From assembly GCA_947632195.1 (NCBI GenBank), contig CANROE010000009.1, forward strand, positions 1 through 60,564: a DNA stretch of 60,564 nt. The letters are read 5' to 3'. The position numbers and the translations under genes are program-made. Under the pieces are notes generated by a model that was not told where the DNA came from, searched no databases, and saw nothing but the letters and a program-made list of their open reading frames with translations. Of this stretch, positions 3,395 to 52,103 are shown piece by piece. The stretch's first letter is position 1. Every line of letters begins with the position of its first letter. This stretch comes from an uncultured Clostridia bacterium. GTDB lineage: Bacteria; Bacillota; Clostridia; Christensenellales; Borkfalkiaceae.

Positions 3395-3538
3395 GATTTT
3401 GCGTTTCCCCTTGCGGGAAAACAAAAGCTCCGTACCGCAGACGGGCACGGAGCAGCTTTTCGCATTTGAAAAACTTTCCTTACCTCGACGGGATATTGAG
3501 CAAAAACGCACCCGTTGTCTGCGGCATAGAATGTTTAC
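3395..3538 (-). promoter_or_regulatory. L10 ribosomal-protein leader (autoregulatory RNA)
   Basis: Read leftward, the leader contains CCGCAGACAACGGGTGC, then ATATCCCGTCGAGGTA, then a hairpin CTCCGTGCCCGTCTGCGG / CGGTACGGAG followed by CTTTTGTTTT. These match the order and core sequences of the Bacillota L10 leader, in which L10-L12 binding favours premature termination (family knowledge). It lies between the rplJ promoter and the rplJ SD. Confidence 0.85.
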
Positions 3539-3544
3539 TGTTAC

Positions 3545-51070: not shown

Positions 51071-51088
51071 AATTTTATTATATACGAC

Positions 51089-51132
51089 TTTCTCGTAGTT
51101 TGTCAACGAATTTCTCGTAGTTTTGTTATACT
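51089..51132 (+). promoter_or_regulatory. Direct-repeat operator over the XRE promoter
   Basis: TTTCTCGTAGTTT occurs at about 51089-51102 and again at 51111-51124, 22 bp apart (two helical turns). The second copy abuts the -10 TATACT (51127-51132). There is no good -35. The first copy overlaps a leftward consensus promoter. It is a likely binding site for the small XRE protein encoded right after it. Confidence 0.6.
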
Positions 51133-51138
51133 GTGCAT

Positions 51139-51345
51139 ATGGAGATCTTCGCAAAAAGATTACGGGAATTACGAAATAAAGAGCACCGCACACAAGCGGA
51201 AATCGCGGCGGAACTTGGGCTTTCGGTCACTTGTTATGCCGGCTACGAGCAGGGCGCACATCAACCTGACTTGAAAACGCTGGTAAAGATCGCAAAATAC
51301 TTTGAAATTTCCACGGACTATCTGCTTGGAATTTCCGACATATAG
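51139..51345 (+). CDS. Small XRE-family regulator, likely leaderless
   Basis: 68 residues, just one HTH domain: MEIFAKRLRELRNKEHRTQA, EIAAELGLSVTCYAGYEQGA, HQPDLKTLVKIAKYFEISTD, YLLGISDI. ATG 51139 is preceded by TATACT only 6 bp upstream and by no SD; a GTG two codons earlier overlaps the same site. Direct repeats over the promoter suggest autoregulation, and it may also act on the leftward promoter in the same region. Confidence 0.88.
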   Translation: MEIFAKRLRELRNKEHRTQAEIAAELGLSVTCYAGYEQGAHQPDLKTLVKIAKYFEISTDYLLGISDI

Positions 51346-51350
51346 AAAAC

Positions 51351-51382
51351 GCGGCGCGGGCAAGTTTGCCCGCGCCGCTTTA
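51351..51382. terminator. Terminator of the small XRE gene
   Basis: Stem GCGGCGCGGGCAA / TTGCCCGCGCCGC with GT between, then TTTATT, directly after the stop codon. Confidence 0.85.
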
Positions 51383-51399: not shown

Positions 51400-51492
51400 A
51401 TGCCCCACACCTCTACTCCCTCCCCTAAGGAGAGGGTAAAATAAGGTCCCCCTCCCCTACCCCTCCCCCAACAAATTGGGGGAGGGCGAGAA
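51400..51492. repeat. C/G-rich dispersed stems
   Basis: CTCCCTCCCCTAAGGAGAGG and then CCCCTCCCCCAACAAATTGG, GGGAGGG. Variants occur at 6588-6630 and 47091-47112. Confidence 0.5.
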
Positions 51493-51509
51493 AACCCTAC
51501 AAACATAAC

Positions 51510-51917
51510 GAAAAACCCTCCGTACTGCGTACAGAGGGCATTCGTCAATTCAGTTGTGTCGGGCGTCCGCATATGCGGGGTAAACTCGACTTTTTTCGGG
51601 ACTCGTTCCCGTCGCGGCGCTTACTTCCTCCGCAACACCTGTTCGTCGGGTTTATTTTTCCGCCCCTTTGAGTTGATAGTACATTGGTGTGTCCTCCTCC
51701 TACCTGATCTTCAAGTAAATGGGATTTTTCATAACGTTGTACCTCCGTTATGATGTTTTTTTTCGGCGACCTTACCTCCTTACCGGTCACCCTGCGATCT
51801 TGAACTTTTCCGTCCTTTTCTCTCGTAAGGTTTCCTCCGATTTTAGGCTTTCCTGTCCATTGGAGTGGTCTCCTTGTTGGAAACTAACATTTTTTGGTTG
51901 TTATTTTCCTTTTTCTG
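51510..51917 (-). ncRNA. Putative structured RNA of about 408 nt between gerA/XRE and spoIIE
   Basis: A consensus promoter (51923-51950) starts it and an intrinsic terminator ends it (stem CCCTCTGTAC / GTACGGAGGG, loop GCA, then TTTTT, 51511-51538). The transcript has many local helices: UAACA/UGUUA, GUUUCC/GGAAAC enclosing GGAG-ACCA-CUCC, GGUGACC/GGUCGCC, the 8-bp UCAUAACG/CGUUAUGA with loop GAGGUACAA, UACUUGA/UCAGGUA, CGGGA/UCCCG, and CCGCAUAUGCGG. GGAGG recurs five times (51838, 51779, 51746, 51700, 51631), several in loops. An 81-codon frame (51545-51790) and tiny SD-led frames such as MDRKA and MKNPIYLKIR exist but look incidental. Not rRNA, tRNA, tmRNA, RNase P, SRP or 6S RNA by eye. 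Confidence 0.6.
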
Positions 51918-51922
51918 GTTTC

Positions 51923-51950
51923 ATTATAACACACTTCCGAGATTTGTCAA
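51923..51950 (-). promoter_or_regulatory. Consensus sigma-A promoter of the putative structured RNA
   Basis: Minus-strand TTGACA (51945-51950), 16-bp spacer, TATAAT (51923-51928). Both hexamers are perfect. Confidence 0.85.
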
Positions 51951-52048
51951 GCGTTTTCGGAAAAAATTTTTTGGAAAATTTTTTAAGCCGACCGCCTATG
52001 CCCGCAGGGATGCCCGTCCGCGCAAGGGAGTTGCGGAATTTCCCACGC

Positions 52049-52103
52049 TTCGACAAACAAAGACGGAAATTCCGCCGCCTCGCCCGAACGGCGCTATTAT
52101 AAT
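52049..52103 (+). promoter_or_regulatory. Spo0A box and -10 element of spoIIE
   Basis: TTCGACAAA (52049-52057) is the exact reverse complement of the Spo0A box TTTGTCGAA. TATAAT (52098-52103) follows without a recognisable -35 at normal distance. This is the layout of Spo0A-activated sigma-A promoters such as spoIIE in Bacillus. The box centre would be near -57. Confidence 0.75.

Follow-up and report, generated by a model that had tools for sequence, protein, structure and literature searches.

A structured RNA with a conserved chain of tiny open reading frames in uncultured gut Clostridia, and its possible gating by translation

What is encoded between the germination (ger) operon and spoIIE of an uncultured Clostridia bacterium, where a promoter and a terminator enclose about 400 nucleotides with no evident protein? 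The locus lies in a stretch of DNA of 60,564 nucleotides (to be referred to as the window), whose neighboring genes are identified by Pfam as encoding GerA, spore permease, GerAC and SpoIIE proteins. An earlier examination of the letters (the sequence-only reading) had proposed a structured RNA of about 400 nt here, with no convincing protein, perfect −35 and −10 hexamers at 16-bp spacing, and a terminator. These features are confirmed. The predicted RNA gene covers positions 51510–51916 on the minus strand (about 407 nt), based on the promoter, terminator, fold, shuffles and homologues, and holds no long protein. The sigma-A promoter (51923–51950, minus strand) matches the consensus at 12 of 12 hexamer bases, with TTGACA at 51950–51945, TATAAT at 51928–51923, 16 nt between them, and a TG ahead of the extended −10. 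The intrinsic terminator (51510–51539, minus strand) has its stem at 51539–51515, which is 96.6% paired among 15 aligned RNAs of the window's genus (g1), with double-sided changes in 6 of 10 pairs. The fold of the RNA has a z score of −4.4 relative to shuffles, 1 of 100 of which is equally stable.

An 81-codon frame runs through this region (51545–51790), and its conservation had been named as evidence against an RNA. The frame is unbroken in 0 of 14 aligned relatives and is rejected as a gene. The longest open run over the same stretch, in any frame of those relatives, is 72 codons (L006, in a different frame). Upstream of the terminator the RNA carries GGAGG six times (two of them overlapping), compared to a shuffle mean of 0.75, and none of 1000 dinucleotide shuffles reached six. 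The richness in Shine-Dalgarno (SD) motifs noted earlier therefore stands, with the count corrected from five. The hairpin TCATAACG-GAGGTACAA-CGTTATGA, also pointed out earlier, has its helix paired in each of the 15 aligned RNAs of the genus, with six of its seven pairs invariant and one changed on both sides.

The promoter is nearly invariant among relatives. Each of 92 distinct RNAs in which the 5′ element was found has TGn and a spacer of 16 nt, and TTGACA is present in 91 of them. The filter behind this count looked for a loose −35 at 14–19 nt from a loose −10 and demanded neither the 16-nt spacing nor the TG. It accepted only certain −10 forms, so the invariance of the −10 among these RNAs is partly built in. 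L069 was left out by this filter, as its −10 is of a non-allowed form, though it is member-like (ORFs MQKD, MYSYAKTIKEKGR and MYKFTGEI). The promoter fits a strong, constitutive type, from which the RNA is predicted to be abundant.

Other elements were observed in the window. Within 51077–51345, a small HTH gene (HTH_3 by Pfam; plus strand) is divergent from a second perfect promoter, TTGACA-18-TATAAT (51106–51077, minus strand), which is flanked by repeats of ACTACGAGAAA, possibly the HTH gene's own operator. A 12-bp G+C-rich terminator-like hairpin (51351–51378, scored on both strands) lies between this gene and the RNA. A ribosomal protein L10 leader is found at 3412–3542 (minus strand, 63.4 bits).

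The RNA recurs in related genomes. A blastn search, as had been suggested, finds matches in 41 of the 201 genomes of the family with completeness of at least 90% (we take the GTDB name of this family to be Borkfalkiaceae); some are short 5′ matches only, and that at L017 is apparently to the promoter only. A sequence model of the 5′ element matches 124 of the 201 genomes (54 of 61 in g1, 56 of 62 in g8, and 11 of 13 in g3), mostly once per genome, with two or three matches in a few genomes. Three weak matches to this model in g10, g14 and g7 were not taken as members. A pattern combining the last ORF (ORF3) with a conserved box (see below) occurs in 77 of the 201 genomes, some plainly by chance, compared to 7 for a reversed control pattern. 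Loci read from it added nine RNAs in g10, five in g5 and two in g2, and a third g2 RNA (L025) came from blastn. One genome of g11 (L029, by blastn) has the 5′ element and tiny ORFs without a recognized box. In total, copies of the RNA were identified in seven genera of the family to which the window belongs and in one genus of a second family (f13), where it is present in 2 of 5 genomes with the parts in the same order. The members, judged by their titles, are metagenome-assembled or uncultured. Candidatus Borkfalkia, which we take to be a cultured member of this family, is placed by NCBI under Christensenellaceae.

Beyond these families, an order-wide pattern search for f13-like members (386 genomes) returned G212, one of the two f13 genomes, again and nothing else, and an order-wide search with the 5′ model gave 6 weak matches outside the family (E values of 3e-5 to 9e-4). 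Four of these six (L132, L133, L135 and L136), as well as the weak in-family match L134, do not have a promoter plus the element, and a match in family f28 (L193) is a chance one whose layout does not fit. A scan of named genome contigs for the 5′ hairpin pattern gave 69 stretches, 65 of which are titled Clostridia, Clostridiales or Candidatus Coproplasma; five of the 69 (L055, L057, L061, L066 and L073) have no promoter and were dropped as chance. Six pattern matches in viral contigs, none with a promoter, were also taken as chance. Overall, the putative RNA gene persists throughout a bacterial family, as a rule in single copy.

No known RNA class was recognized at the locus. The proposed cmscan comparison with Rfam gives nothing at the gathering threshold there and two trivial matches at E ≤ 5. 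Over the whole window three matches reach gathering, none at the RNA locus, and 18 related loci searched up to E of 0.5 give nothing above gathering. The raiA motif RNA (RF03072), which the sequence-only reading had wished to see excluded, has no match at 51490–51970 (E up to 5) or at the 18 related loci (E up to 0.5). Elsewhere in the host genome G000 its model gives 0 matches, just as it does in all 14 control genomes. 6S RNA (RF00013) has no match at the locus, and the 6S RNA of the same genome is located at G000:C28:14663-14842. ARAGORN finds two tRNAs and no tmRNA in the window. In the open-access literature we found no title or abstract start on this RNA, which is not proof of its being unpublished. 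Given these comparisons, the window RNA is very probably a representative of an RNA class that is apparently undescribed.

Sequence comparison shows a common order of parts: a near-constant strong promoter, a 5′ hairpin, a series of at least two micro-ORFs led by an SD, the last pair of which (ORF2 then ORF3) is closely spaced, a 3′ domain closed by a covarying helix (to be referred to as P_A), the box, and a terminator. The tiny SD-led ORFs had earlier been offered as an alternative; they turn out to be the main feature and recur in fixed order in relatives. The first, ORF1 (MDRKA; 51843–51860, minus strand), follows an SD and CUCC element (AAGGAGACCACTCC; 51862–51875, minus strand). Among 85 distinct RNAs, 65 have an SD-led ATG ORF of 2–5 codons at the corresponding position, compared to 5 with the segment reversed. 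ORF2 (MKNPIYLKIR; 51700–51732, minus strand) starts in a hairpin (51730–51752, minus strand) with the SD in its loop and the AUG in its stem, which is 100% paired with one double-changed pair in the 15 g1 RNAs. The SD of ORF3 (51686–51700, minus strand) adjoins the ORF2 stop, and ORF3 (MYYQLKGAEK) occupies 51652–51684 on the minus strand.

Seventy-nine of the 85 distinct RNAs entered the ORF2, P_A and spacing counts. L029, L042, L083, L097 and L125 are outside the 79, having no recognized box or ORF3 or lying at a contig end; L094 is also outside, although both ORF3 and the box were assigned in it. An SD-led ORF2 of 8–23 codons stands beside ORF3 in 78 of the 79 RNAs, its stop located 4–26 nt before the ORF3 AUG or, in two RNAs, overlapping it. 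In its strict form, this arrangement is present in 75 of the 79, while 40 dinucleotide-shuffled sets have a mean of 1.2 and a maximum of 3; in a looser form, it is present in 77, with a mean of 9.7 and a maximum of 14 in shuffled sets. In the 79 RNAs the last ORF is 8–14 codons long (from a search window of 6–15), and its presence is partly circular since the motif used to pick them demands an SD-like site, a start and 6–15 codons. The ORF2 and P_A counts are free of this circularity. Three of the five g5 RNAs encode an ORF2 peptide M[KVF]RILARKIFRGGLFQ whose TGA stop codon overlaps the ORF3 ATG. Such a stop/start overlap is a usual sign of translational coupling.

Selection on a peptide is detected in one genus. 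The ORF2 peptide MY[K/R]SDLRKL of g10 is kept in nine RNAs while its codons change, with pairwise differences of 32, 28 and 138 at codon positions 1, 2 and 3. There are 125 synonymous and 36 nonsynonymous codon differences in this frame, compared to 6 and 151 in the +1 frame and 46 and 123 in the +2 frame; the pairs in these counts are non-independent, and an extra codon at position 7 was omitted from L161 and L165. As judged from these changes, the putative ORF2 of g10 is selected at the peptide level; of the ORFs compared in g10 and g3, amino-acid selection is seen in this ORF2 only. Two g3 ORFs, with synonymous/nonsynonymous counts of 121/422 and 115/199, have no excess of synonymous or third-position changes.

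Past its 5′ element, L022 has three near-identical tandem units, each with an SD, an ORF (MTFK or MTYT) and a CCGCGAAAGCGG hairpin, which suggests that such a unit may undergo duplication. In family f13, L192 has two micro-ORFs that consist of AUG-UAC-UAA (MY) alone, and L195 has one; in both of these RNAs the last ORF seems, by eye, able to pair with the box itself.

Covarying helices, which the sequence-only reading had named as support, were found, as a set of seven helices in the 15 g1 RNAs (alignment A5, from 17 listed g1 RNAs without L005 and L012) and as P_A in relatives. The 5′ hairpin, GGAAAATAAC...GTTAGTTTCC with an A-rich loop (51879–51909, minus strand), is recognized in an alignment of 65 RNAs, and 94.8% of its cells are paired in the 15 g1 RNAs. 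Helix P_A is formed by ORF3 codons 6–8 (5′ strand, 51661–51665, minus strand) and the bases just 5′ of the conserved ACAACUGAAU box (3′ strand, 51561–51565, minus strand). It encloses the structured 3′ domain (51579–51649, minus strand), with helices P_B (CGAC/GTCG), P_C (51614–51633) and P_D (51597–51611). The box itself (51548–51557, minus strand) was recognized by comparison and is present in family f13 too. The seven named helices have a covariation score of 0.207 in the 15 g1 RNAs, compared to 0.130 in shuffles (reached in 0 of 500) and at most 0.101 in slid controls, although a structure derived from the scored sequences themselves is favored over its slid versions.

Over the 79 RNAs the mean helix score of P_A is 16.6, compared to 12.9 (sd 0.28) after shuffling of the partners. 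In within-group shuffles (65 RNAs with an ORF3-to-box distance of at most 160), the score is reached in 0 of 500 for g8 (25 RNAs), 0 of 500 for g3 (19) and 11 of 500 for g1 (21). The helix starts +16 to +19 nt from the AUG in 69 of the 79 RNAs, compared to 24.2 (sd 3.5) after shuffling. A position about 16–19 nt past the A of the AUG is near the leading edge of an initiating ribosome.

Alignments A2–A4 cover 63 RNAs under the same distance limit, L027 and L081 being left out. In 25 aligned g8 RNAs, P_A is 96% paired, with 5 of 6 pairs changed on both sides. P_A and P_B together have 40 double-changed cells in these RNAs, compared to 15 in shuffles (0 of 500). The pairs changed on both sides are unexceptional (7 compared to 5.7 in shuffles, 112 of 500), and so are the pair types (14 compared to 12.9, 135 of 500; 16 in one slid control). 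Thus, two of the five measures in this test do not exceed the shuffles, and related sequences may exceed shuffles without structure. The best-helix score of P_B is beaten by shuffles in 202 of 500 for g8, 1 of 500 for g1 and 0 of 500 for g3. In the g1 RNAs, P_A, P_B, P_C and P_D are paired in 77%, 53%, 95% and 68% of cells, respectively, and P_A is mostly a conserved GGG with little covariation. The predicted P_A-closed 3′ domain is clearest in g8 and g3 and is weaker in the window's genus. RNAalifold finds no consensus pair across genera, and model R1 is therefore a sequence-only one.

These features suggest how the RNA might function. A ribosome finishing ORF2 would terminate beside the SD of ORF3 and could re-initiate there. 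While initiating at the ORF3 AUG, its leading edge would be located at P_A, and elongation through ORF3 to the stop would melt this helix and open the 3′ domain and the box. The folded or open state would then report on translation, as it is the progress of ribosomes that would melt P_A; the signal might be ribosome supply or, on the micro-ORFs themselves, charging or stalling. The state of the 3′ domain would in turn set what the box or the domain binds in trans. We consider it about an even prospect that this is a stand-alone, translation-gated RNA, in which ribosomes on ORF2 and ORF3 gate P_A.

In g8-type relatives, the RNA may additionally pair with itself. The 5′ element of these RNAs ends in AAUGUU-A-N6-AACAU, where N6 is a palindrome that varies. 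With a loose flank, N6 is palindromic in 30 of 58 RNAs, with eight different palindromes; in a larger set with other flanks, it is palindromic in 32 of 45, with seven different ones. The 13 non-palindromic RNAs of the 45 are ten g1-type RNAs, including that of the window, together with L045, whose N6 self-pairs with G-U, and L053 and L079, which carry AGCGCU one base earlier. The palindromic loop element is absent from the window RNA and its genus. The loop of the 5′ hairpin AAAAAGTTAATGCGCAACACTTTTT carries the palindrome TGCGCA in four of the five g5 RNAs read (L197–L200) and could be a second kissing loop. The changing hexamer suggests that g8-type RNAs may form dimers. An extended version, with a homodimeric or higher-order RNA machine in which coupled micro-ORFs, nascent peptide and re-initiation switch a 3′ effector domain to give a gene-free translation sensor, is conceivable, though we hold it to be doubtful.

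The setting of the RNA differs among genera. In the 29 g1-type loci, with neighbor calls limited to the stretch at hand, a ger gene and spoIIE are on the two sides in 18, one of the two is present in nine, and neither is present in two (L007 and L121). The RNA is co-oriented with spoIIE in 13 g1-type loci (L002–L005, L008, L009, L015, L021, L035, L058, L084, L099 and L125) and faces away from that gene in nine (the window, L006, L018, L047, L082, L089, L092, L098 and L124). The occurrence of both orientations in the same ger–spoIIE gap suggests inversion in place, perhaps repeated. Elsewhere, four of the nine g10 loci have the RNA after a GerAC-type gene, 13 g3-type loci have it a short distance behind a gene of mreB type, and in 21 g8-type loci it is divergent from a Na+/H+ exchanger gene (the mreB and exchanger identities are from one representative each by Pfam).

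A link to sporulation had been proposed from the position next to spoIIE and a Spo0A box. The position holds for most g1 loci; in other genera the neighbors include mreB and Na+/H+ exchanger genes. A TTCGACA box, which we take to be the Spo0A-box core, is present at 52049–52055, 99 bp from the −35. A match to the SpoIIE model (E ≤ 0.001, none above the curated cut-off) is found in 195 of the 201 family genomes regardless of the RNA, so that co-occurrence does not link the presence of the RNA to sporulation. The link of the RNA to sporulation is positional.

Could the RNA instead be a leader or attenuator of a neighboring gene such as spoIIE? The tiny ORFs and the terminator are attenuator-like, with ORF3 codons in the P_A helix, spoIIE is downstream on the same strand in the 13 co-oriented loci, and several g8-type loci have one gene family (cluster c7) in common downstream, on the strand of the RNA. 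However, the RNA faces away from spoIIE in the window and eight relatives, and no same-strand regulated gene is found downstream in the window. No downstream gene is common to the different genera, and the RNA is therefore not leader-like. Like the tandem attenuators of mgtCBR as outlined in PMC3641672, it has short ORFs, and their translation should change which helices form; unlike them, it has its own terminator, neighbors that differ between genera, and no downstream regulated gene. We regard a leader as extremely improbable. Descent from an established structured class (raiA, 6S or OLE/ROOL/GOLLD), with divergence, would agree with the length range and the Clostridia host, but it is very improbable given the Rfam results at this and the 18 related loci and the separate 6S RNA of the same genome. 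The raiA motif RNA, or ModT, is likewise a stand-alone structured RNA of Clostridia, and ModT affects sporulation, according to the portions of PMC11706538 used here. Unlike ModT, the present RNA has conserved micro-ORFs; the words 'open reading frame' are absent from the ModT main text, and Shine-Dalgarno is mentioned once (PMC11706538). For OLE RNA, covarying palindromes were taken as evidence for symmetric kissing loops, with GGCC, GAUC or AGCU in L9.3, as described in the relevant part of PMC12286853. The g8-type RNAs likewise switch between palindromes, here hexamers in one 5′ loop, but the present RNA has micro-ORFs and no covariance-model match, and the window's genus has no palindrome.

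Two further readings are based on translation itself. The RNA could be a micropeptide messenger, with the peptides (ORF2 foremost) as the product and the structure merely tuning translation, as in dual-function small RNAs. The synonymous changes in g10, the conserved g5 peptide in three RNAs, and the MIPSH-type and RYFNKE-type peptides of g3 favor such a messenger. On the other hand, the layout and P_A stay constant across genera but the peptide sequences do not, the peptides are short (2–5 codons for ORF1, 8–23 for ORF2 and 8–14 for ORF3), P_A and the box are outside ORF2, and in both g3 ORFs tested nonsynonymous differences outnumber synonymous ones. We consider this reading unlikely. Dual-function small RNAs combine structured RNA with coding (PMC5521070; VcdRP, PMC8672173), and the present RNA resembles them as a stand-alone transcript in which structure and coding coexist. 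It differs from them in having several ordered micro-ORFs, the last of which forms the closing helix of a domain, and in having no single small protein or known target. The sORF/uORF motifs of the GC-IGR pipeline are also short coding regions in intergenic regions; in that pipeline (PMC6429828), a motif is called sORF/uORF if a terminator is the only structure it could form, and ORF motifs that might form structures are retained. The present RNA, in comparison, joins coding with long-range structure.

Alternatively, the RNA may be a ribosome decoy or docking RNA, with strong SD starts and structure at a fixed distance holding ribosomes or 30S subunits, for example at growth stop. The 79 RNAs together have 205 GGAGG motifs, compared to 52 in shuffles, the P_A spacing is fixed, and two-codon ORFs such as MN and MY occur in relatives. 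However, the peptide-level selection of g10 implies roles for both elongation and the identity of the peptide there, and we consider a decoy rather improbable. The sequence-only reading had suggested that loops with GGAGG could contact 16S rRNA or ribosomes; the abundance of the motif is borne out, and several of its copies are conserved translation starts and not generic anti-SD loops. Overall, the RNA is partly attenuator-like or dual-function-like but lacks the defining feature of an attenuator, a regulated downstream gene, and its class may in the end be that of an elaborate dual-function RNA.

Returning to the translation-gated RNA, if this reading is true, the RNA would be of a kind that is neither plainly noncoding nor a protein messenger, with the translation of tiny ORFs built into its fold. 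It would make testable the idea that free-standing bacterial RNAs are sensors of ribosome activity. The findings also suggest that sorting intergenic candidates into coding or structured, and length cut-offs in gene finders, can miss such genes. For the related uncultured gut Clostridia that carry it, this looks like an undescribed kind of RNA, putatively wired for a response to ribosomes.
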